64,000 bases of DNA from assembly GCA_034440635.1 (NCBI GenBank), contig JAOTON010000951.1, positions 310,001 through 374,000 of the forward strand, written 5' to 3'. The DNA comes from Lepas anatifera. Taxonomy: Eukaryota; Arthropoda; Thecostraca; Lepadidae. Under the pieces are notes generated by a model that was not told the origin of the DNA, did no database searches, and saw only the letters and a list, made by a program, of their open reading frames with translations. This document shows positions 13,836-60,813 of this stretch, in pieces (position 1 is the first letter of the stretch; each line of letters starts with the position of its first letter). The position numbers and the translations under genes were made by a program.

Positions 13836-14376
13836 TTAATCTGATACACGATAGACTTGATACAATTTTATAAAATTTGATACAATGCCGTTTACCATGT
13901 GACATTTTCATGTGCTCTCGTGACGACTGACGGTTCTTAACCCGTCCCTGGCTCAAGTCTGAACTATAAACTGCCAGGTACAGGATTCTTAAGCACACCC
14001 TCTGCTAACTCGAGAACTACCCAACCGATTTTATCCATTCAAAATGCAATAGATAGTTTTTTTGGACATCGTCATGCCTTAGGTTTATCTTACCCTGTTC
14101 AAATACTCGAGCCTGGATTCCAATTTTATTGACCTGGAATGATAGCCAATGGACATGCAGATGCTTGCATGCCGTTTGTGATGAAATATTTACACATATA
14201 ACGTCATAGCGTGAATGTTGATGCAGATTTCATGGACTAGGTTACTGATGCGATTCAAACTACGAAAAGTTGACCATAATATGGCTTCCAAAGAGAGTAT
14301 GTGCCCATGGTTTAACTATTCAATCTAAAATAATGACTATTTTACAGATTTGATGACGCCACTATGACGTCATTAA

Positions 14377-15564: not shown

Positions 15565-15568
15565 TTAA

Positions 15569-18235: not shown

Positions 18236-18730
18236 GCCCCAGCCATTTCTGACATCACCTGTTTCCCATGAAAAATGTAGCGTTGGTAATGGTTATAGCC
18301 ATTCAGAGAGACACCACTGCCCATAATTCTGGGCACGGGCCATTGCGCCAGCGCAGTTAGACGTGGGATTTCCTGTGCCTTTGAAATGGCTTCAGTTGTT
18401 CATATACGATTTCTGGTCAGAGACAAATTAAAGCCCGGATTTTTTAAAATTCCTGATTACTGCAATTTACAACTTTTAGTGACAAAAATAATTTATAATG
18501 CGCAGCTGCTTGTTACTATTATTCTTTAATATATTACTTTTCTCCTTTGGTTAGTGAGTGACCTCTTTGGCAAAGCAGTGATCTACGTCTGGATGAATAT
18601 TGTGAGGAATACAGCTAAACAGCCCCTCTGTGGCAGAAGGATGCCATCACTGTTCTTATTTTGGAAAAACGATAGCATGTAGAACATCTTAAATGCTCAC
18701 ATATAGTCTTAGCCGCTGACGTGCCCTTAA

Positions 18731-19749
18731 CCCTCGCCCCACCGGGGCCATCGATGCCCCCTAAGGTTTTTTTCGGGATAGCAGAAAAACGAAGAAACGC
18801 AGGAGCGCAGTTGAGGGTTCTACCTCTCGCCCCATTATTTTCACATCATCCCTGAATTTTTTTAACCCGGGTCACCCAAGGTCAGGTCACTAGGCGAGGT
18901 CAACCAAGGTCACCTCACTTCAACTTTTGAGCTCTATAAGAGCTACGGTTCTCAGTCGATAGATTTGAAACTTCCTACAGTTCATGGCCCCGCCAGGGTC
19001 TACAAAGTGTTTAACCGGAATTTTTCGATTTCGTGACCTAACGTCAGGTCACGAGGTGACCTCTCCCATTGAAAAACATGAGAAAAAGCTGTCTTATGAT
19101 CTAAAAGCCACAAAACGATTGCAAATGCTCGGCTTGCTCAGAAAAGCGTTCTTGGACACCCTTTTACGGATCCCAGGGGTCATATTTGCCCCTTGACCTC
19201 TCCAAGGTCATCGAAGGTCACCAGGGGTCAAAAACAGTATTTTGGCAATAACTTTTGACCTTATTTAGCTAGAGCATTGAATGAAACACCATCGTGTATG
19301 TATCATCACTAGCTTTCATTTGATATACAGCAAGGTCACTTTCTGACCTTTGATTACCTCAGGTCATATGAGGTCACGAGGTGACCTCTGGAGGTCAAAC
19401 CACTGGCGGGAGGTCATTACGTTCCACATAGCGGAACAAGGTATGGCTTTTTCCTATCCAATATAATGTACCAGACCTCAATAGCTCTAATGGCATAAGA
19501 GTTATGCCCAGTTTTCCTATGCATTGCATATTTGAGTGAAAATAGCCTATCGTGACCTAATTTGACCTCTGGAGGTCAAACCATTGACCTGAGTGCTTAA
19601 ACATGCGAAGTAATTTCTTACTGAATTCACACTAGCTTTCTAATGCACTTTGCAGATTTGCACTAACCCCATATTTTCGGAGTTAGAGGGGGCATCGATG
19701 CCCCACGCGGTGGGGCGAAGGTGGCGCCGGACCCCCGATGGGGCGCGGG
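18731..19749 (+). mobile_element. TTAA-flanked TIR element (1.0 kb)
   Basis: TTAA at 18727-18730 and the mutated form TTGA at 19750-19753. The ends are CCCTCGCCCCACCGGGGCC and, inward from the right, CCCGCGCCCCATCGGGGG. The element at 54452-55418 is of the same subfamily in the opposite orientation. The interior is rich in TGACCT/AGGTCA. Confidence 0.75.
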
Positions 19750-19994
19750 TTGAAATCAAGTCCATCTTAAAAGCTGCTCAGTGATCCCAACTGATCCCAT
19801 CTCATAAGCCGGAAGTGGTCGCTATCAGGGGAGTCTGGGGCCTTGGCTATCGGTACCCGGAGGTCGAATTTTACAAAGCGCCGAAGTTCCTTCTCATGGT
19901 GATGTTGTTTCCTGATTCCAAGGGATTGAAAGTCGCGGAGATTTTCAATTTCTTTTAGGTTACAAGAATGCCAGTTTTGGCCATAGAACATTGT

Positions 19995-21180: not shown

Positions 21181-21614
21181 TTCGACTGGGTGAGCAGTAC
21201 CCCTTACTTTGAGCCGATTAAGGACCTTTTCCGTAAACAAATATCTTCGTCTTGTGAGCTTTCGAACTCCGCCTGTAATTTTCCTTTATCTTTCGTGGAG
21301 AATGAGATACGGAGGGGGACGAAAAACGCCCTCCCAGCGGGGCGCGTCATGCCAGGGACCCCAGTGGGGCGGGTGTTAACACGCGCATTGACGGGGTGGG
21401 CGGGTCCCCGCCTCCTCGGTTTTTTTGGAGATAGCATAGTAACGGCTGCGTGTAGCGCCGCCGTATTTGGCATACCTTTTCTCTCATCATTTTTAAAACT
21501 TTTTGGACAATATCAAGGTCAGGTCATCTCAGGTCAGGTCAACAGTACAGGTCAAGTGACCTGACCTCAAAAAATTTGAAGATAGCATAAGTCGGAACAG
21601 GGTGAACTTACCGG

Positions 21615-23107
21615 ATTTATTTATTCATCTCATATGAGCAACAGGGGCTTGCCCCCAGTAAAAGCTCAATTCAGGGATAACATCCAGATTCCTTAAAATT
21701 ACATATAAGATACATGTTAAAAAACAAGTCAAGACAAAAAGTAAATACAAGGTAAGAATAAAAAAGATAAAAATATACAAAATAAAATTCTAAAACATTA
21801 AAAAATACATATGTAAAGGCCAACAATAAAATACAATGAAATAAAATAAATGGTGCGTTCCTACTGCCTAACATATTTCCGAACATGAGATTTGAACTGA
21901 CCTGATGATATTCTAAATGAGTCAGCAAATGGACAGGCGAGCATAAAATCATTAAAAGCTTTGGGCAGCCGACAGTACACACCCCGCCTCACAGTCTCCT
22001 CTGTGTACAATGGTGCGCTCAGTAAAGTGCCTGCCATTGCACATGTTCTTCTTGCCGGCACGTGAAGCGGGAAGCTACCAAGCAGAAAGGAGGAATCGAT
22101 CTGGGCCGTTAGAATTTTGTGTACAAAAGTAATGTCATATTGCAGTCTTCTCTCGACTAGACTTGGGATTTTGAAATGGGGCAGAAGTTCAACGTATCCT
22201 AGATTTACGGAGGGTTGAGTAGAAACGGATGCTAGTCAGATAAGAAATGTATGGTGAATTTTTTCCAGTCTTTCCAGATGCGTTTTGGCAGACCCACCCC
22301 AAATGATACATCCAAACTCAAGAATTGAAAGAACATTGGAAAAATATGCCGTGAAAATTGACTTGGATTTCAATTTCGAGCTCGCTCTCACTCCTCCCAC
22401 CCGATGGCCAGTCTGGAGCGACCGAATCATCACACCTAACATCCTGTTTGCTCGACTTACGATTTTATCTATATGTTCTGCGGATGTTAATTTGAACTCC
22501 AGCCAAACGCCAAGGTCCCGAATGAAAGATACTTTTTCTAGGGCGTGGTTTTGACTTTTGTAGATGTTCAGCATCGGTTTCTTCTTCGGAGAAATTGTAA
22601 ATGATTTGCATTTGGACGGATTAAGCTGCAGCTTCCAAAGATGAGACCAATCAGCCAAACGTGTCAAGTCAGCATGAAGTAGCTCTGAGTCCTCAGGAGT
22701 CACAATTTTATGAAACAATATTACGTCGTCGGCGAAAAGAAGACAGTTCGTTTTAATTTTGTCCGAAAGATCATTGATGAAAAGAGCAAACAGAATCGGT
22801 GAGATAATTCCACCTTCCGGCATTCCAGAGCGCACAGGTGTCCACTCAGAAAATTTACCATTAAAAGCTACGCGTTGCTTTCGATTTGTGAGGTAAGAAG
22901 AGAGCCAATTGAGGGCGGCACCTGAGATTTGATAGGAATTTTGTAACTTATGAAGCAGTAATTTGTGGTTGACACTCTGAAACCCCGAGGAGTAGTCGGT
23001 GTATATGACGTCAGTTTGATGACCAGATGAGATCGCCTCCCACGACGTTTTTAGAATACAAGCTAATTTTGTATCACGAGAGTGGTGTGGGATTGAAAAG
23101 AGAGGTT
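21615..23107 (-). mobile_element. 5'-truncated non-LTR retrotransposon (LINE) fragment
   Basis: On the minus strand it runs from a 5' truncation at about 23107 to a 3' tail ATGAATAAATAAAT at 21615-21630. It encodes a reverse transcriptase and the C-terminal region typical of jockey/CR1-like LINEs. It sits inside a TTAA element, between the GGTGAACTTACC and ATTGAAACTCATATC parts of that element's consensus, which fixes both boundaries to within about 10 bp. Confidence 0.85.
21861..23107 (-). pseudogene. LINE reverse transcriptase, one in-frame stop
   Basis: A single minus-strand frame runs from the truncation point to the stop at 21861. It shows motif A-like TDYSSGFQSVNH, a fingers/palm stretch NWLSSYLTNRKQRVAFNG, motif B-like GMPEGGIISPILFALFINDL and the catalytic FADD (around 22734). 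The C-terminal part LVERRLQYDITFVHKIL is typical of jockey/CR1-type LINE proteins. The frame is broken by one TGA at 22236-22238; the next 125 codons continue in the same frame. The endonuclease and N-terminal regions are missing. Motif A reads FQ where many relatives have FD, while the catalytic first Asp is present. The intact frame around a single stop suggests a fairly young insertion, dead by truncation. Confidence 0.9.
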
Positions 23108-23715
23108 GTGATATTGAAACTCATATCACATAATGGGCACAACGAGTTCTCTAAAATATGTTCCGGTGTTTCTTATATCGATGACCTAAGGTCAGGTACG
23201 AGCCATGACCTTTCCATTGGGAATACATGGGAAAAATGGTTTTAACTGAATAACTTAGTAACGGATGGTGATAGAGCGTTGATTTTAACTTCATTAGATT
23301 CGCCTTGTCTTTGCAGTTCTCAAAATTTGCATTTTATCTAATTTGACGTTGACCTGACCTCCGGTCAGGTAAAATCCTTGATTTGACCTGGCAAGGTCAT
23401 ATTATATATCATTCTATTCGGCTTGCTGCGAGGATTCATATAGTTCAAGTTGCTTTGCTCTATCTTTACTTGTTCAGATGGATGACCGAAACCTTCATTT
23501 ACATGCTATCCCTATGATGACATTTTTTGACCTCTAGAGACCTAAAATTTGGCCTGACAAAAAATGGTACAAATATTTTTGATGGAGAAGTGGATGGGGT
23601 ACCCAACGGCGTTTACCGTTTTTCGTTACCTAGCGTGGTTTCGAGATCTTAGGGGGTACCCACCACCCCCGTCAAAGTGAAGGTGGCTCAGACCCCCGTC
23701 AATGTGCGTGATCAA

Positions 23716-27338: not shown

Positions 27339-27613
27339 TCAATTGCTGAAACTTTTTTTGACCAGACTATTGCGATAACATAAGTTGAGGTCACTTGAAG
27401 TGGTTTAGCGGTTTGACTTAAAACTATGTACACCTCGGGAAAGCTGCAATATGAATCAAGAACAAGCTGCAATAAGTGGGGAAGCGTCCATTTTCCCCGT
27501 TGTCTCCGGCTCAGAAAAGTCAGAAGCTAAGTAGCTCAGGTGGAGGCCGACTTACTAGTCCAATCATGTAATGGACGAATTCAAGTTAAAATATTGAAAA
27601 GCTGTGTTCTTAA

Positions 27614-28024
27614 CACCCGCCCCGGTGTAGCTCCAAGCCACCCTCGCCCCGGTGGTGGTGGAGGGAGTTTCAAATACCCCCCCTCGAACTCGGCTCCTAT
27701 GCAGAATAGCGAAAAAACGCAAAGGCTGATGGATATCCCATCACAATGCATCAAGAAACTACCCGGTCATTTCTTACTCAGGTAAATATTGAGGTCATGA
27801 CAGGTCAAAAAGGTGACCCTGACCTGACCTCATGTCAGGTCAGGGTCGACACCTAATCTAGCACAGTCGATATGATTACCAGTGGATTCGTAATAACAAC
27901 TTAAACGTTAAGGTATCAGATAAAAGCTTTATCATTCTTTCCCGCAAAGTTATTGACCTAAGTCTGAGACCTGCGTAAGTAGCCCCAGATAACCTCTCAG
28001 AGGTCACAGGTCCAAACTTAAAAC
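27614..28024 (-). mobile_element. TTAA-family element, left piece of a split copy
   Basis: TTAA at 27610-27613 is followed by CACCCGCCCCGGTG. The piece matches the left 40% of the full copy at 59371-60529, for example CCCTCGAACTCGGCTCCTAT in both. It stops in the middle of that consensus, at AGGTCACAGGTCCAAACTTA. The consensus resumes at 42619 (ACATGAACAT...ACGAAGGTAT), so this and 42619-43077 are two halves of one element split by the 14.6-kb insertion. Confidence 0.8.
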
Positions 28025-28485
28025 CAGGGGTCTAAAAAGTGAGCTTGTGGTCGCCGACTAAAATCCAAGCTTCTTAGATGGTCGCCGAACCTAATACTAC
28101 ATGTATTACAAAATCGGTCTTAAAAGTGGTATAAATATGGCTATAGGGAATCACTGGCGAGTGCAAGGGGGAAGGTTCCGATAAAATATAGATATAAAAA
28201 ACCTATAAAATATAGATCGGGTTTCTCGATATCGATAACCTAAGCCAGAATCAAGTCATTACCTAAGTGATTTCATGAGATTATAATTCAGTATTAAAGT
28301 CAAACTTATGATCTGAAAGCAACAAAATTATACATGCTGGCTAGGGTGTTTCAGCCCACTATAGTGAAATTTTGTTTGTTTGGAACGAAGTCATATCGAC
28401 TTTCCCCCAGCTCTAGACGTAAAACTGAATCGATTGACACCCTTAAAAGCAAAATAAAAGGGCATTTAGAGGTCGCGCACTTTTA

Positions 28486-28758
28486 TCACCAAAAACCATT
28501 ACACTTGAAAGAGGCGCATTCTTTCTTGGTGCGCTTGGGTAGAGCCCTCCGATGGAGTTCCACCACCCGGAGCAGGTACTGCTTCTGCTTCTCGTCCTTG
28601 ACGAATCCGTTGAACTTCTTGATGAGGGCGATCTCCCTTTCCCACTGTTTTTGTCTTGAGTCGAAAGTTAAAGTCATTGTGGCGTCCCATTTGATATAAT
28701 GATCCTTCGCATATGTAGGAGTATCGCAACAGATTCGACGCATATGTTCTAAATTCAA
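28486..28758 (-). CDS. Unidentified coding-like fragment
   Basis: A 90-codon ORF whose middle, KDHYIKWDATMTLTFDSRQK followed by a basic helical-looking stretch (LIKKFNGFVKDEKQKQYLL), has coding-like composition and GC-rich third positions. Part of it (DHYIKWD..LTF.SRQKQ) is repeated on the opposite strand at 29011-29080. I do not recognise the family. It lies just inside the left end of the 14.6-kb element and might be a remnant of the element's own protein or a captured host exon. The AAG before GATCATT in both copies could be a splice or duplication boundary. Confidence 0.3.
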   Translation of the reverse strand: MNLEHMRRICCDTPTYAKDHYIKWDATMTLTFDSRQKQWEREIALIKKFNGFVKDEKQKQYLLRVVELHRRALPKRTKKECASFKCNGFW

Positions 28759-28905
28759 CGTAAGAACATATTTTAAGGAACATCAAACGATCAAACAATT
28801 ACTGGTCAAACCAAAGGACAGGATAGACAACCGGAAAAACCAGGCCCAGTATACAAGATGGAATGTAATGACTGTCCAAAAATATACATTTGAGAAAGCA
28901 AAAGG

Positions 28906-29130
28906 ATGATGGAAGTCCGACAAGACGAACACCGAAAATCTCGACAAAAACTAATGCGAGAGTCAATTGACGAGAGAGCAGCGGAGGCCACAGCAAAACA
29001 ATCATTCGAAAAGGATCATTATATCAAATGGGACACCACAACGACTTTAACTTTCAACTCAAGACAAAAACAGCGGGAAATAAAAGATGCAATTTACATC
29101 CAAACCACCACGGAACCAAAATGGATATAA
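28906..29130 (+). CDS. Unidentified coding-like fragment, inverted relative of 28486-28758
   Basis: A 74-codon ORF starting ATG ATG, encoding a charged, probably helical N-terminal part (RQDEHRKSRQKLMRESIDER) followed by KDHYIKWDTTTTLTFNSRQK, which matches the minus-strand fragment at 28638-28717. The two copies are about 90% identical over roughly 75 bp and then diverge. Function unknown; it may be a pseudo-exon. Confidence 0.3.
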   Translation: MMEVRQDEHRKSRQKLMRESIDERAAEATAKQSFEKDHYIKWDTTTTLTFNSRQKQREIKDAIYIQTTTEPKWI

Positions 29131-29506
29131 ATATCGGCAAAGTTACCATCTTCTCTGGATTTTTGGACCTCTTAAAACGCCAGCCAAACAAAGAGATTGA
29201 ATTGAAAAATAACACGTGTTTAGAGCTAATAATTCTAAAATGATTCGTCATGTTCATAGCTAAGATTGTTCTTTCAAAGTTTACCCTGTCTTCGTGTTTT
29301 TCGCTTAGTTAGGTTTATGTCATAGTGTTTTCTTCATCTCCCTTGAAAACGGGGGCGGATGCTCCCGAAATCGGTCGGGTTTTATGCTCAGGCTAGTCTT
29401 GTGCAGTAATAAATGTTTTATTTAATTTTAAGAATATTTCAGATGTGAAATAGAAAACCAAGCAAAAGAAAACCAGCGCCAGTATCAGTGTGGAAATGTG
29501 TACATT

Positions 29507-29653
29507 CATAGGCGTAGGAACAGGGGGCAGGGGGCCATAGCCCCCCCCAATATTCTTGATTCTTAACCCTTAACCCTATGGCGTTGACTGGAAAGAAATG
29601 ACTTCCAAATGCACCTTGGCCTCCCCAATATTCTGGACGTTCCTACGCTTATC
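29507..29653. mobile_element. 147-bp hAT-like MITE with 8-bp TSD
   Basis: The left end CATAGGCGTAGGAAC and right end GTTCCTACGCTTATC are inverted with small differences. Exact duplications TGTACATT flank the element (29499-29506 and 29654-29661). It is too short to encode anything. Confidence 0.8.
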
Positions 29654-29829
29654 TGTACATTTGAATACATTTGATAAAAAACTGCAAAAGTGCGCGACCT
29701 CTAAATATTATCGAAATACATGGAAATCTTGCACCGAAGCTTGTAAGCAGATGAGGTTTGAGGGGAACGTCGATATGCGTCAAAATATTGCATTTTGGAA
29801 CAATGAAACACCCTAATGCTGGCCCTTAA

Positions 29830-30390
29830 CCCTAGCCCCGGTGACCAGCATGAATCACCTATGAACCCCCCCTGGTGGGAGGGGGTTAAAAATGACACCC
29901 TCGATCTCGGAAACAAAGAAAGATAGAAGCGGAAAAAGCGATCGAAAGGTCGTCGGAAATGCAGTCAGCGTTACTCCCGGAATTTTTGCGGAAGGTCAAT
30001 ACTGTGGTCACCAGAGGGGGATAATTCATATACGTCAAAATGTATCAAATGCAGTGCTCTATAAAACCTTGCTTATCTCCGTACGCAAAATAATCGGAAC
30101 CACTTTCTCAACGCTATTCGACAGAGCCGGACCAGCTCTTTCACAAAGGCAACATCCATTTTCATATCGGTTCAAAGGCTAGGGCGCAACAGGACACTGA
30201 ATATTGGGGATGTTATCACGTAGCTTCAAGTTATAATAGGAAGAACGCTCGCATTGGGCGTGATATGTCGGACCTAAGAGCCAATGTTGGATAGTGATCA
30301 GTCATTTATACGCACTACGCAGTCATGAATACGTGTCGATAGTGCCCACTAATCTTAGGCTAAGTCTGTTTGGAGGTCAATCGAGGTCAA
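29830..30390 (-). mobile_element. TTAA-family fragment
   Basis: TTAA at 29826-29829 is followed by CCCTAGCCCCGGTG. The next several hundred bases follow the minus-orientation family consensus (CACCAGAGG, ATTGGGGATGTT, GGTCAATCGAGGTCA). The far terminus is not recognisable. Confidence 0.55.
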
Positions 30391-31316
30391 AGATGATACA
30401 CTGCCCGTACACAAGGGCAATTAAATGGGCGCCGAAAGCGGTGGGACGGGGTACCTACGCATCCTCCTGTTGGCCAACCAGGGGGAGGTCTCCCCAAAAT
30501 TTTCGGTTCGTCATTAATGCTGTCAGGTACCAAATATGCTCACAATTCCCCTGCCCCGGTCAGCACAAGCCCGGGTCCGTTCCCCTGTAAAAATTCCGTG
30601 GGAGCGTCCCCAGGCATTAACATTTTCGCCCATCACTTCTATACCAAGCAAGATACAACCATGATTGATGCAAAATTGTTGTTCTCTCATCAATAATGGT
30701 TTTATTTTGTGTCCATCCATGTGAAAAATTGTTAGGCCTTATCTTAGAGACAAATAAAAGGGTTTGCAGCACCTTAAAAAGAGCCTCAGAAACAGTTCCG
30801 ATGTTTCATTTAACTAGAAAAATGTTTTCATGTACATACATGCGTCGTGAAATACTTGTGATCCTTCACCTTGAGGCGTCAGAAATCAGATAAATTCCTG
30901 TAACATTTCAAATAAATAATTCAAACATTATTCATTGGCAACATTTCGTCAGAAGTGCAGTGGAAAATATCAACCATTGCTAAGATGAGGCCCGATTTTC
31001 ACTCCATTGTTGAACATGGTTCTATTCAAAGCAATAGCAATGCTGTCTCTTGGGAATAACCTTGTTTTCTTTCCATGACATCATTCCCATGATAACTATT
31101 TCCAAAGCTCTTAATTGATGCATTTTAGCATTAATAATCAGGACTGAAAAAGTTTCCAGAATAGTTGCTGATGACCTATTTGGACCAGGATTGGGTACTG
31201 AGAAGAATAATTTGCATTTCAGCAACCTGTTCTTTTGTGGTGGACCAGTGACGGATCCAAGGGGGGGCCCAGGGGGCCCGGGCCCCCTTAGCTCCGAAGC
31301 GCCCCAGTAAAGCTCA

Positions 31317-31351
31317 GCTCATATCGGGCGCCGAAGGCGCCCGATATGAGC
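31317..31351. repeat. Perfect 16-bp stem hairpin near the element tip
   Basis: GCTCATATCGGGCGCC, loop GAA, then the exact reverse complement. It lies about 70 bp inside the left end of the 8.28-kb element. Subterminal hairpins can take part in end recognition, but no function is shown. Confidence 0.9.
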
Positions 31352-31359
31352 GGCGCGCC

Positions 31360-34300
31360 TGTACCCATTTCGTGCGCCAAGGTGGTAGATACCACTTATT
31401 CCACTTGAATGAACACATACTCCTTAAAACCATGGCAAAACGCCCCTGCCCAAACACTAGACGCCTTTACTGGTCTTTTGCGCCCCCGTAAAATGTTGAA
31501 GATGAAATTTAGAAAGATAACAAAAGCGCCCCGGCAAAGAAAAGGCGCCGCTAGATAGCAAGATTGCGCCATGGGGAACTAATGCACCCCTGAGTAGCCT
31601 AGGCGCCCCCTGGATGAAGCGCCCTACGGATACCATATGCGCCCTTGGCTAGGAAAGGCGCCCCTGGGCAGCAAAGGCAAATCTTGGTAGCATAGGTGAA
31701 CTGGACAGCATAAGCGCCCCTTAGATAGAAATAGGCGCTTTAGGAAAATAAAATGCTCACCTTGGATAGAAAAAGGCGCCCTTTGATAGCCTAGGCGCCC
31801 ACTGGAAAAAGCGCCCTACGGATGCCATTTGTCATATGCACCCTTGGATAGCAAAGGCGCCCCTGGACAGCAAAGGCGCCCCTGGGTAGCAAAGGCGCCC
31901 CTAGGAAGGCACCCCTTCGATAGAAACCCGCCTTTGGATAGCCTAGGCGCCCCCTGGATGAAGCGAACTACGGATATCATATGCGCCCTTGGCTAGGAAA
32001 GGCGCCCCTGGGCAGCAAAGGCAAATCTTGGTAACATAGGTACCCCGGACAGCATAAGCGCCCCTTAGATAGAAGTAGGCGCTTTAGGAAAATAAAATGC
32101 TCACCTTGGGTAGAAAAAGGTGCCCTTTGATAGCCTAGGCGCCCACTGGAAAAGCGCCCTAAGGATGTCATATGCACCTTTGGATAGCAAAGGCGCCCCT
32201 GGACAGCAAAGACAACCCTGGATAACACAAGTGCTGTGGACAGCAAAGGCGCCCCTAGGACGGCAGCCCTTCGATAGAAAAGCCGCCTTTGTATAGCCTA
32301 GGCGCCCCCTGGATGAAGCGCCCTACGGATATCATATGCGCCCTTGGCTAGGAAAGGCGCCCCTGGGCTGCAAAGGCAAATCTTGGTAACATAGGTGCCC
32401 AGGACAGCATAAGCGCCCCTTAGATAGAAAAAGGCGCTTTAGAAAATACAATGCTCACCTTGGGTAGAAAAAGGCGCCCTTTGATAGCCTAGGCGCCCAC
32501 TGGAAAAAGCGCCCTACGGATGTCATATGCACCCTTGGATAGCAAAGGCGCCCCTGGACAGCAAAGACAACCCTAAGTGCTGTGGACAGCAAAGGCGCCC
32601 CTGGGTAGCAAAGGCGCCCCTAGGAAGGCACCCCTTCGATAGAAAAACCGCCTTTAGATAGCCTAGGCGCCCCCTGGATAAAGCGCCCTACGGATACTAT
32701 ATGCGCCCTTGGCTAGGAAAGGCGCCCCTGGGCAGAAAAAGCAAATATTGGTAACATAGGTGCCCTGGACAGCATAAGCGCCCCTTAGATAGAAATAGAC
32801 GCTTTAGGAAAATAAAACGCTCACCTTGGGTAGAAAAAGGCGCCCTTTGATAGCCTAGGCGCCTACTGGAAAAAGCGCCCTACGGATGCCATATGCACCC
32901 TTGTATAGCAAAGGCGCCCCTGGATAGCAAAGAAAACCCTAGATAATACAAGTGCTGTGGATAGCAAAGGCACCCCTGGGTAGCAAAGGCGCCCCTAGGA
33001 AGGCACCCCTTCGATAGAAAATCCGCCTTTGGGTAGCCTAGGCGCCCACTGGATGAAGCGCCCTACGGATATAATATGCGCCCTTGGCTAGGAAAGGCGC
33101 CCCTGGGCAGTAAAGGCAAATCTTGGTAACATAGGTGCCCTGGGCAGCATAAGCGCCCCTTAGATAGAAATAGGCGCTTTAGGAAAATAAAATGCTCACC
33201 TTGGGTAGAAAAGGCGCCCTTTTATAGCCTAGGCGCCCACTGGAAAAAGCGCCTACGGATGTCATATGCACCCTTGGATAGCAAAGGCGCCCCTGGACAG
33301 CAAAGACAACCCTAAGTGCTGTGGACAGCAAAGGCGCCCCTGGGTAGCAAAGGCGCCCCTAGGAAGGCACCCCTTCGATAGAAAAACCGCCTTTAGATAG
33401 CCTAGGCGCCCCCTGGATGAAGCGCCCTACGGATACTATATGCGCCCTTGGCTAGGAAAGGCGCCCCTGGGCAGAAAAAAGCAAATATTGGTAACATAGG
33501 TGCCCTGGACAGCATAAGCGCCCCTTAGATAGAAATAGACGCTTTAGGAAAATAAAACGCTCACCTTGGGTAGAAAAAGGCGCCCTTTGATAGCCTAGGC
33601 GCCTACTGGAAAAGCGCCCTACGGATGCCATATGCACCCTTGTATAGCAAAGGCGCCCCTGGATAGCAAAGAAAACCCTAGATAACACAAGTGCTGTGGA
33701 TAGCAAAGGCACCCCTGGGTAGCAAAGGCGCCCCTAGGAAGGCACCCCTTCGATAGAAAATCCGCCTTTGGATAGCCTAGGCGCCCACTGGATGAAGCGC
33801 CCTACGGATATAATATGCGCCCTTGGCTAGGAAAGGCGCCCCTGGGCAGTAAAGGCAAATCTTGGTAACATAGGTGCCCTGGGCAGCATAAGCGCCCCTT
33901 AGATAGAAATAGGCGCTTTAGGAAAATAAAATGCTCACCTTGGGTAGAAAAGGCGCCCTTTTATAGCCTAGGCACCCACTGGAAAAAGCGCCTACGGATG
34001 TCATATGCACCCTTGGATAGCAAAGGCGCCCCTGGACAGCAAATACAACCCTGGATAACACAAGTGCCGTGGACAGCAAAGGCGCCCCTGGGTAGCAAAG
34101 GCGCCCCTAGGAAGGCACCCCTTCGATAGAAAAGCCGCCTTTGGATAGCCTAGACGCCCCTGGATAAACTAGGAGCCCGAGAAGGAAAACGAGCGCCCCA
34201 CTGGGAAGTACAGGCGCCCTCTGTATAACATAGATGTCCCTTATCCACCTTCAGCTGCCCTGCATTGGAGCAGCGCCCCCAAGACCAAAGGCGCCCCTGG

Positions 34301-36690
34301 ACAAAAAGACGCCTCTTGGTATCAAAGGCGCTCCTAGATAACATATGCGCCCTTTAGATAGGAATAGGCGCTCCAGGAAAGCAAAATGCACCCCTTGGTT
34401 AAGAAAGGTGCCCTTGGATAGCAAAGGCGTCCCTGGACAGCAAAGGCAAATCTGGGAAACATAGGTGCCCTGGACAGAATAGGAGCCCCTTAGATAGAAA
34501 TAGGCACTTCAGGAAAATAAATGCAACCCTTGGATAGAAAAAGTGCCCTTTGATAGTCCAGGCGCTCACTGGATAAAGCGCCGATGGATATCATATGCAC
34601 TTTTAGATAGCAAAAGCGTCACTGGACAACAAAGACAACCCTGGATAACATAAGAGCTTTGGACAGCAAAGGCGCCCCTGGATAGCAAAGGCGCCCCTAG
34701 GAAGGCACCCCTTCGAAAGCAAAGGCGCCTTTGGATAGCCTATGCGCTCCCTAGATAAACTAGGTGCCTGAGAAGGAAAATGAGCGCCCCATTGGAAAGA
34801 ACAGGCTCCCCCTGTATAACATAGATGTCCCTTATCCATGTTCAGCTACCCTGGATTGGAGCAGCGCCCCTCAAGAGCAAAGGCGCCGCTGGACAAAAAG
34901 GCGTCTCCGTATATCAAGGGCACTCCTAGATAATATATGCACTCCTTACATAGAAATAGGCACTTCAGGGAAGCGAAAGGCGGCCTTTGGTTAGGACGGC
35001 GCCCTTGGACAGCCTAGGCGCCCTCTGCATAAAGCGCCCTACAGATATCATATGCGCCCTTGGATAGCTAAGGCGCCCCTGGACAGCAAAGTTAACCCTT
35101 CTTGAAATAGATGATCTGGACAGCATAGGCGGCCATGGATAAACTAGGCGCCTGAGAAAGAAAACAAGCGCCTCACTTGAGAGTACAGGCGCCCCCAGGA
35201 TATCATAGGTGTCCCTCTCCATCTTCAGCTGCCCTTCTGTCTATGGTTTGGCACACCTGTCCGACAGTTGCGCGCTCTGTTATAGGGCTCGAGCGCTCAA
35301 TTTATGCATGAACTGCCTTTATTAACCACATTTCATTAACCCATAACTGAAGGCTTAGTGCTCCATCGCTGCAACCGGGTGCCTTTTTCAGTATGTGCGC
35401 CCCGTTTCCGAGAACGCTGCCCTCACCAACCAGCAGTCCTCCCCGCTCAGCAGATGAGCGCCTCTTTCTGATAACTAGGCACTTTATTTCAGTGTTCAAG
35501 CGCCTTATTTCAGAATTTTTATTCTCCATCTATTTTGGGCTCCTCCTGGATTGCAGAGGCGCCCCCTCAAGTGCAAAGGCACACCTGGATAGAAAAGTGC
35601 GCCCCATGTTTGCAAAGGCGCTCCAAGATAGCATATGTTCCCCTTAGATGGAAATAGGCACTTCAGGAAAGTAAAATGCTCCCTTTGGGTAGCAAAGGTG
35701 CCCATTAACAGCGAAGGCAGCCCTAGATAACAAAGGTTCTCTGGACAGCATAGGTGCCCTTGGATAAACTGGTGCCCGGAAGAGAAAAATAGCGCCTCAC
35801 CGGAGACAAAAAGCACCCCAGGATAACGTAGGGGCATGTATTTCAATCATGTCTGTGATGGAAAAATACACCTAGACAGCATATGCGCCCCTGGATAGAA
35901 ACACACCCCTGGGCAGTAACGGCGCCCCTGGAAAGCAATAGTGCGCCCCTGTAGAGAAAAAAACCGCCTCCTGAATAATCCTAGGCACCGCCCCCGAAAT
36001 ATCAGATGCCCGTGGATAGAACAGACTGCCTTGAATAAAACAGCGGCCCTGGATAGTAAAGGCGACCTTTGATAGCATAAGCGTTCCTTAGCAACAATAT
36101 GGGCGCTACATGAGCTCAAGGTTCACGTGCACCTAAGCCCAATAATAGAGCAATCAATCGATGCCGAAGCACTCCTTAAAGCACGGGCGCCAAATTTCCT
36201 AAGAAGTAAAGGCGCCTCTGGGTAGCAAAGGCGACCCTCGACAGTGGTGTAGGTATTCCTGAATAACAGCAGCGTACCTTGATAAGAATAGCCCCAAGAT
36301 GGCACAGGTACCCTGTTGATAGGAAAAGCGCTCCTGAATATCAGAGGCACCCTCTGAATGAGGTGCCCATGGAGAGCATAAGGGCGCCCTATGCATAGCA
36401 AAGTGCCGCCCCCTGGATAGCCTAAGCGCCCCTTGCATAGGGTAGGCGCCACTGGGTAGTATAGGTTACCTTGAATAAAAATACGCCCCTCAATACCAAG
36501 GTGAACCTGGATAAGAAAAAGCTCCCCCTTGGGCACCGGGTATCAAAGGCACCCCCGGAACAGCAAAGATGCCCCTGGATAGCTAGGTTGCGTCCATTGG
36601 GGAGCGAAGGCGCCCCTGGGTGGCACAGGTGCCTCATCGAAGCAAAGGCCCCCCAGAGAGCATAGGTGTCCCTGATGAGCACAGGTACTC
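31360..36690. repeat. Minisatellite with higher-order repeat structure
   Basis: The basic unit is 18-20 bp, close to GGCGCCCCTGGATAGCAAA. About 19 variants are arranged in a higher-order unit of 355-376 bp, seen from the marker CCCTTCGATAGAAA at about 31913, 32268, 32632, 33008, 33371, 33746 and 34112. The middle shows a longer period (see 32581-34068). From 34.1 kb on, the copies are more diverged. ORFs across the array only reflect the repeat. Confidence 0.92.
32581..34068. repeat. Two nearly identical 740-750 bp dimers
   Basis: TGTGGACAGCAAAGG starts at 32581, 33320 and (as CGTGG) 34069. The blocks 32581-33319 and 33320-34068 show only a few visible differences, so the second-order duplication is much younger than the first-order variants. 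Confidence 0.8.
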
Positions 36691-36984
36691 CTGGACAGCC
36701 CCTAAATGACGTTGCATAATGTTACGATTCCTATTATGACGTATGCTATTATATCAAAGTAAAGGTTATTCAGTGTTTAGATCAAGGTTACAGGTCAATT
36801 TTAAAGGTCACTGGCCTTGATGATCAAGGCTTGATCAAAGGTCATTGGTAAGCTTGGGCACAGCGCTAGTTATAGCGTAAATTAGGCATAATATGTTGGG
36901 TTGTGCCGTAATAGGTCAATGACCTTGAAGGACCTTGACCCCAAAAATTGCAGACATTGTTTAGAGCCTTCCCTTTTGGCCTCA

Positions 36985-37790
36985 GCCCTGTTCTAGAGTA
37001 TTCGCTCCCCGTTCCGGCCCGTTGCTTGAACACCCCCTCGAGGTCTCCCAGTGGCACGAATAAACGTCGGCGCGAAGCGACACAGTACTTGTCACACCTT
37101 ATCATTGATCAATTCCGCAACTTTCCCTCAAAATTTAAGGTTGCGTCATCTCAGGTCAGGTCACCAGTGCAGGTCAAGTGACCTCACCCCAAAAAATGTT
37201 TAAGTTGGCGTAAGTAAGAAAAGGGTGAATCTATCGAATTCAAACTTGTACCATATAATGGGCCCAAAAAGTACTAATACATTTATTGCGGGATTTTTCC
37301 CATCGATGACCTAGGGACAGGTACGAATCATGACCTCTCCATTCAAAATGCATGGGGTAAAACGGAAATTTGCCGAAAAATTGCTCTATGTCTGCAGACT
37401 CCGCTTGGAATACCTTCGGATTCCCCAAATCATGGTATCCTAGGCCTCTTTATCGGTTCATGTTGCAAGTTTAGACATGTTACCTCTGAGAGTTCATCTG
37501 GGGCTTCCTAAGCAGGTTTTAAGACTTGGGTTAATTGCTTTGCAGGAAATATTGACAAAACCCGTATTTTGATACCATTTTTTATTGCTATTGTGAGTTG
37601 ATTCATATGCATACTGACTATGCTAGGCTAGATGGTGACCTTGACCTAGCCTTAGGTCAGATCATTTTTATGTTTTGACCTAGTATAGTCATATTATGCA
37701 TTATTTGATCATTCGCCGTAACGAGAGGAAGCGAAGTGTGCCTAAAAATGATTCTAGCTCAACTCTGGCAGATGCTAGAGTATATACACA
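36985..37790 (+). mobile_element. TTAA-family fragment inside the 8.28-kb element
   Basis: It matches 49061-49850 and the reverse of 59371-60529 from CGCTCCCCGTTCCGGCC onward, including ACTTGTCACACCTTATC and ATAATGGGCCC. The right side is truncated where the next minisatellite starts. About 300 bp before it (36690-36985) is TGACCT-rich and may be an older piece. Confidence 0.65.
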
Positions 37791-37799
37791 GAGGCATGT

Positions 37800-38600
37800 T
37801 GTAAGCTTTGTCTCGGGGAGGGGGCCCTAGCGCTGATCGCGGGAAAAATCCCCAATGGCCCCCAGGGGCCCTCAGGGAGTCAGGAAATCTGGCGTGGGTG
37901 GAATCCGGTAGGAGGGATTTTGGGTCTCCAGAATCAGCTGAGGGGCCCGTGCCAGTTAAGGGGGCCCCAGATAAGGGCCCCCGACGAGCCCATTTGACCT
38001 CAGCGCCAACACAGGATTCTCAAGACCAGCGTGGGGTGCCTACCTATTTAAACGGTTTCTAAATAAGCTCAGGGACCCAAAACTAACCCAGGGGTCCAAT
38101 TTTCAACTCATGGGGCCCAGACACTCTGAGGGGAACCTGCAGAAGCTCAGAAGGCCCATAAAACTAATAGGGCCAGACTAGCTGGGTGCCTCGACGAACT
38201 AGTGCCCAGATACGCACAACGGGCCCCAAACAAGCTGAAGGGATCTATATCAGTTAAACGAAAACAATACCAACTCAGGGACCCTGACCAGCTTAAGGGA
38301 CACTTATCCAGCTTGGGGCTCAGGCTCAGAGCTCCAGCTTTTTAGCTCAGAGGGCCCAGGACCGGTTGAGGGGGCCCTATATCAATAAAAGGGCCCCAAA
38401 AAGCTTAATAGACTTCAGCGGCGACATATAGGTTTCAAGTTCAGTGTGAGAGTCTGGTTAACTAAAGCGGTCCCAGATCAGCTGAGGGGACTCGATATAA
38501 ACTCATCGAAGTCACCGAAAACTCAGGGGCCCAGGCCCGCAGAGGTTCTGCGGCCTATGAGGCTCAGGTTAGCGTCAATCGGGTATTTCAGTATTGAGCC
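37800..38600. repeat. Minisatellite, about 20-bp G/C-rich unit
   Basis: Degenerate units such as AGATCAGCTGAGGGG and CTCAGGGGCCC, related to the array at 540-1735. Confidence 0.7.
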
Positions 38601-38887
38601 GTTAGCCAGGACAACTGTGATAAGTGGAGGTGGTGGATACGACACGTCAGTTTTTACCATGACCGAATATAACTATATTATTTGCTCATCGCGCTCCAGT
38701 TAGTGTCAGTGGGTGCTTACAGCATTTTCTACCACGGTACCAGTCCTTAGCTGGCCCGAAATATGCTTGATGGTAAACGTGAACATGTCCTCACTAAGAG
38801 GAAGCTTTCATAAAAATAAGCATTTACAAATCCTTTTTTAAACGCGTTCTTCATTGACACTGGCCGCCTTTTTGGTGGTAAATTGGC

Positions 38888-39426
38888 CAGTGGCGGATCC
38901 AAGGGGGGAGGGAAAAAAAGGCATTCCCCAAACGAAAAAGCTCGGGGCAAATCTGCGTTTTCGCCCCCCAAAGCGATCAGCCTCCTTTTTCCCCTACTCC
39001 TTAGTTTATAAGCAAGATTTTGGTGTTCCAACTCTCAACTTCAAACAGAACATAAGTTGATAAGATGTTCCCTGACCTGTCCCCTCGAATCCGGAAATGT
39101 AAAAAAACACTGAAGATTATATATTCGGGCACAGCCCTTCATCAGAATCATGGAGTAAATATAAATAATTCTCAGTTATAGTATAGCCAGACCTCCATAG
39201 TATAGCAAGGCATAGTATAGCCAGCCTTGGATAGGAAGAAGTATCTCGAGCCCATACTTTTCACCCCGTGAAGTTTTTTTTGGCTTTTTGCCTCAAATAC
39301 CCAAAATTCTACGGGCAAGTGATATTGGTAGCGCAGCTTTTTACTGCGTGACGTTTTTTTTTTTTTTTTTTTTGCTTTTCGACTTTAGTTTGCCCCTCCT
39401 AAACCGACCGGCTAGATCCGCCACTG
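38888..39426. mobile_element. 539-bp hAT-like element with 8-bp TSD
   Basis: The left end CAGTGGCGGATCCAAGGGGG and right end CTAGATCCGCCACTG are flanked by identical AAATTGGC (38880-38887 and 39427-39434). It contains a 20-plus T tract at 39354-39373 and no coding frame. It inserted into the right side of the 8.28-kb element, which shares the same tip class. Confidence 0.88.
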
Positions 39427-39876
39427 AAATTGGCGCCCCTCAGGTTCGGCGCCCCCCAGGTTCGGCGCCCCCAGGTTCGGCGCCCTCCGAGCCTGGGCCC
39501 CCCTTAACGAAATCCTAGATCCGTCACTGTGGTGGACACAATCTCTCTGTGATATTTCTGATGTACCTCTGTGGCAGTGCTTCCATATTTCATCCATACT
39601 AGAGAAAACAAAACGATTCAACTTTCTTGTGACAAAAAATACAAGATATTATCAGAAACTTGGATGCATATAATCAGTCAGTTAAAAACATACACACACA
39701 CCTTGATCACCCAGTGTGCATCCATCTGTGCAAAAGACACAGCTTATTCTATGTTTGGCAGACTTGGATTGGACCATTGTCCTTGCAGTGGAGTCTTCTG
39801 GCAAATTGGAAATGGTTATCACATATTTGTGCTGTGCAGGAATGCACATTTATATCCCTTATGGGGTACCAATGCA

Positions 39877-40678
39877 CAGAGATGGATCTAGGATTTTAGT
39901 AAGGGGCAGGCAGCCCTCTGAGATTGCATGCTGTCAACCAAAATGGCACACTTCACCCAAAAGGGTGGCTATCATCATCAATCAGTGGGAGAAACTGTGG
40001 TTGGTGTGACTTAAAAATGGTAACAGTGCCATAAATGGGAATGTTTGACCCATAGATGGGAACACCCATTCTCAATTATGGGAATGCATGAGACCATTTT
40101 CCAGAACAATATTTTAGGCCATGAAACAAACTTTTGTTCTTTCTACCTGGCTTATTTCTGTTCTTAAAATTTTAGAGGACATTTATCTTTGAAGCAGAAA
40201 CAGGAAATCAAACTTTATACCCTGCTTCAAATATTGAAGCTCAACATGTTTATTATGATCATTCACATGTCTTGGTGCATCTGTGTAAATAAAACCCTAG
40301 TCATATACAAAATAAATTAATAGATACCTAGTGAAACAATAAAAAAGTTTTTTAATATTTGATTTATATTGCCACTTGAGATAATAATATATACAGACCA
40401 AGACACATGGCCATACAGAAGATGACGTGAGCCAACCTAGCACAACAAAACCTGTTTTCAGTACCTTTAATGCCATTTTTCACAACTTCTAAACTTCAAA
40501 GCTCCATCTGTAGCCCCATCATTTGTATTCTAGTGGTGGGGGCAGTAGCAAGGTATTTTCTGCCTCACAGACCTGGTTTAATCAATTTTGGGGTACCCTT
40601 TTCCTCAGGCCGCCCTTAATCCTTTCAAACTTAAGGGGTCCTGGACTCGAGTTCAGGGATCCCTTGCACCCGTCACTG
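39877..40678. mobile_element. Degenerate G-rich-tip TIR element
   Basis: The left end CAGAGATGGATCTAGGATTT resembles the right tip of the 8.28-kb element read inward. The right end is GCACCCGTCACTG. The flanking octamers CCAATGCA and CTGTGGCA match at only four of eight positions, so the copy is old or the boundaries are slightly off. Confidence 0.45.
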
Positions 40679-40734
40679 CTGTGGCACCCCAAATGAAAGC
40701 TCAAGTTATTTTCTGTGCCTACTAAGAGCATCCT

Positions 40735-41060
40735 TAAAATTTTCCTATTTCTCATTTCAGGGACTTTAAAATTTATAAATAACAGGCCTACTTGGTCACC
40801 CAGTTATATGTCCAGCTATAAGGCCCAGTCTGCAAAGTATGGCAGCATGCCAGACGAGTCGCACCAGCCATCTAAAATTCTCGCACCACCAGCCTCCAAA
40901 AATTTGCACTAATCTGGCACATACCAGGGAAAAAATGCACCCATTCCTACCCCAGTGTACAAAGTATGGCATTTTCGACGAGATCTCGTCGGCGCGAGTG
41001 CCCTTGGAGACAGGACCGAGTGGTGCGAATTTTATCAACCTGGTGCGAATTTGCAAGGTA
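40735..41060 (+). other. Possible exon-like segment (acceptor to donor)
   Basis: A strong acceptor (TTTTCCTATTTCTCATTTCAG ending at 40760, shown here only as position) is followed about 300 bp later by the consensus donor CAAG|GTAAGT at about 41058. No single frame is open across the whole interval, so the segment could be non-coding or a pseudo-exon. It overlaps the A and B arms of the permuted inverted repeat. Confidence 0.25.
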
Positions 41061-41538
41061 AGTGACACTTAAAATTAACAAATAATGGCTGAATGACTAT
41101 TAAGACACAGGAGGGGCCTTATAAAAAGCCCTTAATTAACTGACTAATGATTGAGATAGCATTGCATTGCAGGGGTAGGAATGGGTGCATTTTTTTCCCT
41201 GGTATGTGGCATATTGGTGCGAATTTTTGGAGGATGGTGGTGCGAGAATTTTAGATGGCTGGTGCGACTCGTCTGGCCTGCTGCCATACTTTGCAGACTG
41301 GTTCCTACCCCTACAATGCAATGCTACCTCAATCATTAGTCAGTTAGTTAAGGAATTTTTTATAAGGCCCCCTCCTGTGTCTTAATAGCCATTCAGCCAT
41401 TATTTGTTTAGTTTAAGTGTCACTAACCTCGCAAGTTCGCACCAGGTTGATAAAATTTGCACCAGTCGGTCCTGTCTCCAAGGGCACTCACACCGACGAG
41501 ATCTCGTCAAAAATGTCGTACTTTGCACACTGGTATAA
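40825..41538. repeat. Permuted inverted repeat, order A-B-A'-B'
   Basis: A (40825-40953) is the reverse complement of A' (41172-41301), and B (about 40950-41175) is the reverse complement of B' (about 41301-41538), with few mismatches. The order is A, B, A', B' instead of the simple palindrome A, B, B', A'. A and B also begin alike (CCAGT.T.CAAAGTATGGCA). B and B' each contain the perfect palindrome GACGAGATCTCGTC (40977-40990 and 41495-41508). Confidence 0.85.
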
Positions 41539-42284
41539 GGCAAGAACATGGTGGTATCAAAAACAGTATACTTGTTATGGATAGTCTCATAATTAGGCAC
41601 CCCAAAAATCATTTAGGAAATCCACCCCTTGGGAATGTGTGACTATACAACAATGTTTACGATGACATTTTAGTGTGATTGTGGTTGGAAAGGGTTTAAA
41701 CATGCACCACTTGTATTCAAGTTTTTTTCCTTCTGAGACTTTTTCGCGATAAAGCAAAACAAGGAAACATCATTGCAAGTAGACTCCAAAACCCACCTAG
41801 ATTGCACGGACTGTCTATGATAAACGCACATCTTGATTTAGCCCCTTGGATTTAACAAATTGAACACCAGTCGTCAAAAACGGCGCTCACTGCTCCCAAC
41901 AAGAATACAAAAATATTAGCGGCAGCCCGCGCCGCGCTCGTTCTGAAGGCCGCAGACACCGAAAATGTACCAGGGTGACCACCGGCGACCAAGCGACCAC
42001 TGCAAGTCGGCGGTTTCGGCCGACCTGGTCTCCCATTGGTCGCCTATAGAAAAAAATGAAAATCATCGACTTGGTACCGACTCGTGACAGATTCTAGTAC
42101 ATTCTAGTTTGAACTTAGAAATAGTACATAAATACGGTACAGGGAGATGGCATCATCTAAAGTACCAGGTCATTTCAGTCGTTTTTCATAAAATTGGAAC
42201 CAAAAATTGTAGTAAGAAGAAACATAACTAGCATAGACTAGCAGCAACTAAGGGCGGTGATGATACCAGATGTAATCGGCCAAA

Positions 42285-42475
42285 GATGCCCCGTTGTAGC
42301 CAAGCTGTCTTTCAGAAACGCCAAACAAGCCGGGAAACGAGGGCTAACTTGGCTCTTTGTCGAAGTAGATTCTGCCCATTCTTGGCCAAAGGAACTGGCA
42401 GACTTCATCCAATAGATTTTGATGGGCTCTGTATGTATTACGATGACGGGTGGAGACAGTGGAGAGGGTAAGCAT
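42285..42475 (+). other. Short coding-like segment near the right end of the 14.6-kb element
   Basis: An ORF MPRCSQAVFQKRQTSRETRA... of 61 codons ends at a donor-like GAGAGG|GTAAGC. A second frame is also open for about 50 codons. No known domain was recognised. It could be a first exon of the element's lost protein. Confidence 0.2.
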
Positions 42476-42618
42476 ATTTAGAAGCAGGAGCGGATGGTGG
42501 AAGCTAAAATCATAGGAAAACAGATGGAATCAGAGTTTGAGACGGTTGCTGGGTCGCCAACCAAAAGATGATAGGGTCGCCGACGGCGTAGGTAGATCGG
42601 CAAGTTTTTAGACCCCTG

Positions 42619-43077
42619 CTTAAAACATGAACATATAAGGGGGCTTACGATACCATGATTTGGGGTTTACGAAGGTATCTAAAGCAGTATCTTCAGAAAT
42701 AGAGCTCTTTTTCGGACAATTTCCGTTTTCCCATGCATTTCCAATGGAGAGGTCATGATCCGTACCTGACCTTAGGTCATCGATATGAAAAATCCCGGAA
42801 TACGTCTTGTAGTACTCGGTGGGCCCGTTATGAAGTATATGCTTCAATTCGATGGATTCACGCTTTACTTACTTATGTCACCTTAAACATTTTTTAGGTG
42901 AGGTCACTTGACTTGCACTGGTGATCTGACCTGAGATGACTCGACCTTAAAATTTTAAGGAAAGTTGCCGAGTTCGATCAAGAATAAGGTGTGGCAAGTA
43001 CGGCGGTGTTTTGCGCCACCTTTTTATGCTGCCGGAAAAACTCCACGGGGTGTTCAAACACCTTACCGGAGCGATAG
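42619..43077 (-). mobile_element. TTAA-family element, right piece of the split copy
   Basis: It continues the consensus interrupted at 28024, including CATGACC..GTACCTGACCTTAGGTCATCGATATG and AAAATCCCGGAA blocks (short motifs only). It ends at TTAA 43078-43081 after TTACCGGAGCGATAG. Together with 27614-28024 it makes a copy of roughly 870 bp. Confidence 0.8.
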
Positions 43078-43081
43078 TTAA

Positions 43082-54447: not shown

Positions 54448-54451
54448 TTAA

Positions 54452-55418
54452 CCCGCGCCCACCGGGGTCCGGCGCCACCTTCGCCCACCGGGGGCCATCG
54501 ATGGCCCCCTCTAATCCGAAAATATGGGCGTTAGCGCAGATCTGCAAGTGCAATGAAAGCTCGCGTGAATTCAGTAGAAATTACTTCACATGTTTTAGTG
54601 CTGAGGTCGATGGTTTGACCTCAGTGTCAAATTGGGTCAAGATCGGCTATTTTCACTCAAATATGCAATGATTAAGCAAACTGGGCATAACTCTTATGTA
54701 TTAGAGCTATTGAGGCCTGGTAAGTACATTTGATAGAAAATTGCCAGTACGTTTTCCGCTATGTGGAACGTAAAGACCTCCCGCCAGTGGTTTGACCTCC
54801 AGAGGTCACCTCGTGACCTAATATGACCTGAGGTCATGAAGGTCACAAAGTAACCTTGCCGTATATCAAATGAAAGCCAATGACAAGACAAACACGATGG
54901 TGTTTGTTTACCGCTCTAGCCTAATTGGGTCAAAGTTATTGTCAAATACTGTTTTTGGCCTCTGGTGACCTTGGATGACCTTGGAAAGTCAAAGGGAAAA
55001 TATGACCCCTGGGATCCGTGAAAGGGTGTCCAAAAACGCTGTTCTGGCAGTCTGAGTATTTGCAATCATTTTTGTAGCTTTTATATCATGAACAGCTTTT
55101 CCCATGCTTTCCAATGTGGGTGCCTCGTGACCTGACCTCAGAGCACGAAATCGAAAATCCCGGATATACACCTTGTAGACCCTGGAGGGGTTATGAGTGT
55201 AGGAAGTTTAAATTGATCGATTTCGAAATGTGCTCTTACGAGCTCTAAAGTTGAAGTGAGCTGACCTTGGTTGATCTCGTCTGGTGACCTGACCTTGGGT
55301 GACCCGGGGTAAAAATTTTGGGGATGATGGGAAATGATGCAGTGGGGTGAGCCCTCAACCGGGTGCTGCGCCTCGTTTTTCTGCTATCCCGGAAAACCTT
55401 GGGGCATCGATGCCGGGG
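54452..55418 (-). mobile_element. TTAA-flanked TIR element (0.97 kb)
   Basis: TTAA at 54448-54451 and 55419-55422. The left end CCCGCGCCCACCGGGG matches the right end of 18731-19749. The copy is inverted relative to that one, with shared blocks such as GGAGGTCACCTCGTGACC. Dense half-site hexamers. Confidence 0.8.
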
Positions 55419-60529: not shown

Positions 60530-60813
60530 TTAACAGGCGCAGGGGACGGGGTCCTAAAGTGTCCCACCTGTTTTTCCAAGGTGGCCGGACAGCCGTTCGC
60601 CTCTGGAAAACGCTACTTAGCCGAGTTTGAGAACATTTATGAATGCGTAGATTTGGGGAAAAATTGTTAAAATTGGTCAATACATGTTTGCTTTATAGGC
60701 TTCGAAAGTCAGACTTATATTTTGAGACCGTCACAATCGCGCGATCGCACCAGTTCCCCTACATCGTATACCGAGTGGTGACGTCATAACGTCATACATA
60801 TTATCAGGCTATA

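Follow-up and report, generated by a model that had tools for sequence, protein, structure and literature searches.

Architecture of the nest

The subject of this analysis is a nest of transposable elements in a 64,000-nucleotide stretch of the Lepas anatifera genome (contig JAOTON010000951.1, positions 310,001 to 374,000 of the forward strand; hereafter, the window). Three elements with terminal inverted repeats (TIRs) and 8-bp target-site duplications (TSDs), denoted outer, middle and inner, lie one inside the next, and the outer element splits a member of a family with TTAA target duplications. Comparison with other copies in the same genome suggests that these layers did not accumulate strictly from the outside in. 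The features are the following:

27614-28024, + strand: left half of the split TTAA-family element, with TTAA at 27610-27613; matches parts of 59371-60529 at 80-85%
28025-42618, + strand: outer hAT-like element, 14594 bp; TIR CAGGGGTCTAAAAA, TSD CTTAAAAC
28342-29815, + strand: 1474-bp passenger of the outer element; TIR TAGGGTGTTTCA, TSD ATGCTGGC, 12/12 end bases
29826-30214, + strand: older stretch in the outer body, 66% like the 1.2-kb TTAA subfamily
31246-39529, + strand: middle hAT-like element, 8284 bp; TIR CAGTGACGGATC, TSD TGGTGGAC
31864-34165, + strand: tandem array of 6.3 units of ~375 bp, inside the middle element
~37010-37780, - strand: TTAA-family copy within the middle element; the alignment with the middle copy on C845 (see below) continues through this stretch
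38888-39426, + strand: inner element, 539 bp, a passenger of the middle family; TIR CAGTGGCGGATC, TSD AAATTGGC
40825-41533, + strand: first X element, interrupted by the second; TIR CCAGTSTGCAAAGTA with 1/12 end bases mismatched, TSD TATAAGGC
40952-41301, - strand: second X element, 350 bp, within the first in reverse orientation; TSD TTCCTACC, 2/12 end bases mismatched
42619-43077, + strand: right half of the split TTAA-family element, starting with the second CTTAAAAC; TTAA at 43078-43081
59371-60529, + strand: TTAA-family reference copy

The window was scanned for pairs of ends no more than 20 kb apart with an 8-bp repeat and a match in 10 or more of the 12 end bases. This yielded 22 matches, compared to 0-4 in each of 30 dinucleotide shuffles used as the control; many of the 22 fall in tandem arrays or other inverted repeats. 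All 12 end bases are identical in four of them, namely, 28342-29815 and the three nested pairs, 28025-42618 with CTTAAAAC, 31246-39529 with TGGTGGAC and 38888-39426 with AAATTGGC, each with an exact 8-bp duplication. These three pairs were thus recovered at the same bases as in the original prediction, which was made from the sequence without database searches and had missed the 1474-bp passenger, the self-nested 350-bp X and the TTAA-family copy at ~37010-37780. Across the window, the 8-bp TSD is exact in all six pairs.

The claim that the split TTAA element reads continuously across the gap when compared with 59371-60529 also stands, provided that the two 8-bp repeats are taken as one. Matches to the left half are found at 59406-59561 (80%) and 59994-60080 (85%), and to the right half at 60074-60533 (78%), with the caveat that the full copy contains two extra stretches absent from the left half of the split copy. 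TTAA is present on both outer sides of the split copy; the left flank of the full copy is GTAA instead. Insertion of the outer copy into a TTAA-family element at this site is supported by these alignments.

Copies of the outer element

The genome searched was the window's own 1.04-Gb assembly, in 2126 contigs. The outer left end, CAGGGGTCTAAAAANTNNGC, has 534 exact matches there, and the reversed-pattern control has none; judged by its copies, the outer element shows itself to be a mobile family in this genome. Among 785 candidates, the 40 best matches supplied the 20 outer copies that were fetched, so that this sample is biased to close copies. For the 14 in which the right end lies within the fetched stretch, the 8-bp TSD is exact in 12 and carries one mismatch in two. 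The left and right outer ends therefore do occur together elsewhere at 8-bp-duplicated sites, and they do so again on C845, as expected had the original prediction paired them correctly. Seven copies that run uninterrupted from end to end and contain the 1474-bp passenger measure 5.91-5.95 kb (L012, L014, L018, L019, L023, L024, L026). Over the common 5.9 kb, the mean pairwise difference among the 20 copies and that of the window is 0.9% (range, 0.2-1.4%), and the window copy lies 0.3% from the majority base.

The middle and inner elements

Of the 20 other outer copies, 18 lack an insertion at the middle site and have TGGTGGAC once; the remaining two could not be scored, as L018 lacks the left flank and the stretch of L028 ends before the site. 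Given these empty sites, the middle element must have inserted into this one, and the comparison of copies confirms a late insertion into this particular outer copy.

A second middle copy (C845:399651-407593, 7943 bp) lies in another outer copy, at a different site and reversed, with the exact TSD CACACCTT. It has a tandem array, too (6.1 units of ~365 bp), and already contains the inner element at AAATTGGC. This position is shared widely. Among the 40 scored inner matches, the best of 4551 candidates, 39 occupy the one AAATTGGC site in middle copies. The window and L051-L055 have the inner element at this site, with differing right flanks of the middle copies; for the remaining 34 matches, the left flank of ~45 bases was read and is within two mismatches of the middle flank in 32. 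The flank of L118, with three mismatches, was accepted by eye and is included among the 39, and L117, in which the inner copy is interrupted by another element, was not counted. That element (C834:242691-242770), ending CTATG/CATAG GCGGATCC, lies right at the beginning of the inner copy and forms a further nesting layer.

Because the inner element shares one site across middle copies, that on C845 included, it is most likely an old passenger that entered an ancestor of the middle element before the latter landed here. The original prediction had taken the nest for an unambiguous order of at least four insertions. The nested insertions are real, as are the steps of the middle element into the outer and of the outer into the TTAA element, but the placement of the inner element last falls: an inner insertion as the youngest event is ruled out by the position shared by 39 of the 40 best matches and by the middle copy on C845. 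Seven middle copies, also best matches, differ by 1.6% on average and by up to 3.4%. As this exceeds the divergence within the outer subfamily (up to 1.4%), the inner insertion might even be older than the arrival of the outer element here, a faint hint that compares two best-match samples and assumes equal rates.

Arrays or runs of G+C-rich units of ~19-23 bp recur at 574-1728 and 61009-63900, toward the two ends of the window, and, as judged by eye, within the middle element at 37800-38700.

Carriage and probable excision of the 1474-bp passenger

Of the 20 close outer copies, 17 contain the 1474-bp passenger (seen from the left side alone in one); it is absent from L017, L020 and L025. A further 40 outer left ends, the first 40 in contig order of 100 listed places out of the 534, were classified by a match rule; the passenger is present in one, absent in 35 and unclassified in four (L066/L067 and L091/L092 resemble duplicates, and both pairs were kept in). 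The empty pattern with exact flanks occurs at 195 places genome-wide (control, 0). Because of these 195 places and the 35 of 40 left ends, the original state of the outer family most likely lacked the passenger, and one lineage that gained it would have multiplied.

Five marker bases read ATAAC in 14 of 18 filled copies and in none of 34 empty ones; they were picked from the same filled and empty groups that they separate, and the empty group at the picking stage included the window copy. The marker and divergence figures for these groups were computed with the window copy outside the empty group, and L059 was kept out of the 34 empty copies, being itself under test. Four copies, L017, L020, L025 and L059, are without the passenger yet carry ATAAC. 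Over ~420 bases, they differ by 0.4-0.9% from filled copies, compared to 3.3-3.8% from ancestral empties. A few bases are lost at the junction in L017, L025 and L059, and the junction of L020 is clean; among the 100 listed empty places, only L017 and L059 are shorter than the usual 39 bases. We read these four copies as probable excisions of the 1474-bp element. Small footprints of cut-and-paste excision are seen for this passenger only, in three scarred copies and one clean one, and the cut-and-paste chemistry itself is presumed.

In the window (28025-29925), the markers are of the filled type to the left of the 1474-bp element and ancestral to the right (ATAGA). The window copy may represent either an early filled lineage or a gene-conversion patch.

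Self-nesting of the X element

Of the 20 other outer copies, 17 share the position of the left junction of the first X; therefore, this X would have entered an outer ancestor. The site of the second X is uninterrupted in 14 of the 20 copies, the other six not being scorable, so that the second X is, by this comparison, a late arrival in this outer copy, like the middle element. In L021, an X lies at another place in the outer copy, with the 8-bp TSD CCAAATGA.

TTAA-family elements and further nests

Insertion between the two classes of elements runs both ways. Outer copies L011, L016, L020, L027 and L028 contain TTAA-family inserts with duplicated TTAA, and TTAA-family sequence hosts outer copies at the window, C845 and L022. 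The four layers, TTAA element, outer, middle and inner, are stacked twice, in the window and on C845. Two outer copies begin in the TTAA-family stretch on C845: one is complete, and the other, read at its left end, starts 76 bp beyond the complete one. This second copy, C845:410231 onward (L049), begins as the ancestral type, without the 1474-bp passenger.

The window contains other members of the TTAA family. Two opposed elements of the 1.2-kb subfamily at 12633-15568 (89% and 82% to the L011 insert) resemble one long inverted repeat. Elements of the 1.0-kb subfamily are found at 18727-19754 and 54448-55412 (88% and 92% to the L016 insert). A frame of 294 amino acids for a reverse transcriptase, at 22239-23120, interrupts a member of the 845-bp subfamily at 21376-23710 (86-87% to the L020 insert); it has at least 120 related proteins, and three of the matches listed bear a name. 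L028 has AACCT units in a row (TTAGG when read from the opposite strand) directly after its outer fragment, ~2337 bases into the outer element. TTAGG is the telomere repeat of many arthropods, and this run may mean insertion near telomere-type repeats. An Rfam scan of the window gave no match.

Superfamily assignment

A hAT-like character of the elements with 8-bp TSDs, for which the original prediction had named hAT and P, fits the 8-bp TSDs and the end bases; it is not proven, as no transposase was linked to these ends. Ends of the CAGGG, CAGTG and TAGGG types agree with the rule for hAT ends, in which CAG or TAG comes first. The first bases of CAGGGGTCTAAAAA, CAGTGACGGATC, CAGTGGCGGATC and TAGGGTGTTTCA are accordingly of the hAT type, and X, which begins CCAGT, fits less well. 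Among 20 stop-free open reading frames (ORFs) of 77-139 amino acids, 10 from the outer element and 10 from the middle and inner ones, no Pfam family was found above the cut-off, and two weak matches fell below it. Genome-wide, 150 hAT dimerization-domain matches were scored of 1241 candidates, many of them in long open frames. The similarity between two hAT-domain loci of one family extends to the vicinity of CAGGCGCGCACCCAGGATTTTCGTAAGGGG, a sequence like the right end of the middle element. CAGGGATCTAATAG was considered as the end of an outer-related hAT element and rejected, because the similarity of the two copies continues well past it. Because of the 8-bp duplications, the short CAG/TAG ends and the excision scars, it is well supported that these elements work like non-autonomous hAT elements, and likely that they belong to hAT.

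The TTAA element looks like a non-autonomous element of the piggyBac type in the way it works. The TTAA target duplication is found in the split copy and in five related insertions in outer copies, and the superfamily is inferred.

Proposed history of the nest

The explanation that we favor, with a probability of roughly 0.86, is a mutual nest of young non-autonomous hAT-like families that carry passengers, with interinsertion resulting from the density of elements. In this repeat-dense genome, several families of cut-and-paste DNA transposons would have had recent activity. Transposases made elsewhere in the genome would move the outer, middle, inner, 1474-bp and X elements in trans; these elements would insert into whatever DNA is at hand, much of it other transposons, and a moving host would take its passengers along. 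Building would have proceeded partly from the inside out: the inner element entered an ancestor of the middle one, and X and the 1474-bp element entered outer ancestors, after which the composite elements may have multiplied. An outer copy would then have landed in the TTAA element here and later received the middle element, with the inner inside it, and the second X. The passengers presumably stay mobile, as the 1474-bp element appears to have left several outer copies, leaving scars. Because passengers can leave, a single genome may contain one nest in its precursor, filled and scarred states. Such nests are probably mobile modules, in which a host and its fixed passengers multiply as subfamilies and passengers can still leave, and depth is then not a clock.

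Several observations weigh against this account. The 0.9% difference understates the spread of the outer family, as it comes from best matches; 34 ancestral-type left ends average 3.7%. The 8-bp duplications of 40 outer left flanks contain no clear or strong motif. The exact ends were found at none of 20 hAT-domain loci read downstream, which leaves the transposase not tied to these ends, and several of the loci (L031, L033, L036, L043 and L045) have matches to the middle/inner end with 2-3 mismatches, which could not be tied to the transposase. Single-base changes at the empty 1474-bp site also occur in ancestral-type copies, and the clean empty site of L020 could be due to gene conversion instead of excision. 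A search of the middle family for an empty inner site, with exact flanks and up to 24 free bases between them, found none, the left part of the query occurring in just 22 of 34 checked flanks, or about two thirds of the variants; evidence for the inner element as an insertion thus comes from its TIR and TSD.

The elements with 8-bp TSDs could belong to another superfamily instead of hAT. P, Merlin and KDZ elements also make duplications of ~8 bp, so that hAT cannot be told from them by 8-bp TSDs alone. The failure of the ORF and hAT-locus searches to link a transposase to these ends and the lack of a TSD motif in the 40 left flanks leave room for such an assignment, but it is unlikely in view of the CAGGG, CAGTG and TAGGG ends, the 150 scored hAT-domain matches in the genome (transposases of P, Merlin and KDZ were not searched for) and the two hAT-domain loci that are alike up to the vicinity of CAGGCGCGCACCCAGGATTTTCGTAAGGGG.

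Alternatively, the elements might home onto one another, with outer or TTAA-family sequences as preferred targets, which would make nests commoner than chance. The same stack of layers in the window and on C845 and the two outer copies that struck one TTAA-family sequence 76 bp apart are suggestive of this. However, TTAA-family sequence makes up 14.9% of the window and received 3 of 21 outer insertions (P(>=3) = 0.63), where the window copy is one of the three and the coverage is that of this single window; within outer copies, too, the insertion sites are scattered. An enrichment of outer insertions in TTAA elements was accordingly dropped, and homing appears quite improbable, the density of the TTAA family being enough to explain the repeated nests. 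L010 has a TTAA-family match of 57-65 bases about 160 bases from its insertion, which was left outside the enrichment count.

A strict outside-in history at this locus, with the TTAA element, outer, middle and inner arriving in turn, would agree with the exact TSD of each nested pair and, for the middle step, with the 18 of 20 empty outer copies. It founders on the inner step, which is refuted by the inner position shared by 39 of the 40 best matches, barring spread by gene conversion among middle copies; the C845 middle copy already holds the inner element, and the exact-flank search turned up no empty inner site. We consider this history highly improbable. Least credible is an assembly artifact in which unrelated contigs were wrongly joined at 28.0 and 42.6 kb: the region is rich in repeats and close outer copies are nearly identical, but such a join is very unlikely on sequence grounds because both outer ends flank one element elsewhere with exact 8-bp duplications (12 of 14 copies), and the TTAA target is continuous across the gap and C845 holds a second nest with the same layers.

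Comparison with known systems

The nest of passenger-carrying hAT-like families favored here is a known kind of system, and we claim no priority for the observation that a passenger can be deeper but older. Its interest is that nesting order serves as a clock of transposon activity, for which this locus would be a worked counter-example, and that a single assembly unites empty sites, a co-moved passenger and excision scars. With hundreds of copies, some of them nearly identical, the outer element could serve as a natural insertion trap for measuring which families have moved since the outer burst.

The TTAA family presumably resembles piggyBac-type elements: TTAA targets are duplicated, and ends start with TTAACCC in some relatives of the TTAA family. 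A point of difference is the weak match, by eye, between the left and right ends of the split copy.

Ds elements of maize (Ac/Ds, of the hAT superfamily) have 8-bp TSDs. The window elements are similar in their TSDs, their short TIRs and their non-autonomous appearance. The published account of Ds (PMC3260210) describes non-autonomous elements with short shared TIRs and very variable size that are moved only when Ac is present. Unlike Ds, the window elements have the ends CAGGGGTC, CAGTGRCGGATC and TAGGGTGTTTCA, no autonomous partner was found for them, and they carry other transposons as lasting passengers.

Elements interrupting elements are also the material of systems that date nested clusters. 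REANNOTATE takes the nesting level as temporal order (PMC2672092), and interruption analysis (PMC2517846) and TinT (PMC3014933) read element-in-element insertions as a time series. The window shares this architecture, but unlike clusters of the REANNOTATE type, its deepest element appears to have entered the ancestor of its host before the host reached this site. When a passenger is fixed in a mobile host, the deeper element predates the arrival of the host, and dating by nesting level would therefore fail here.

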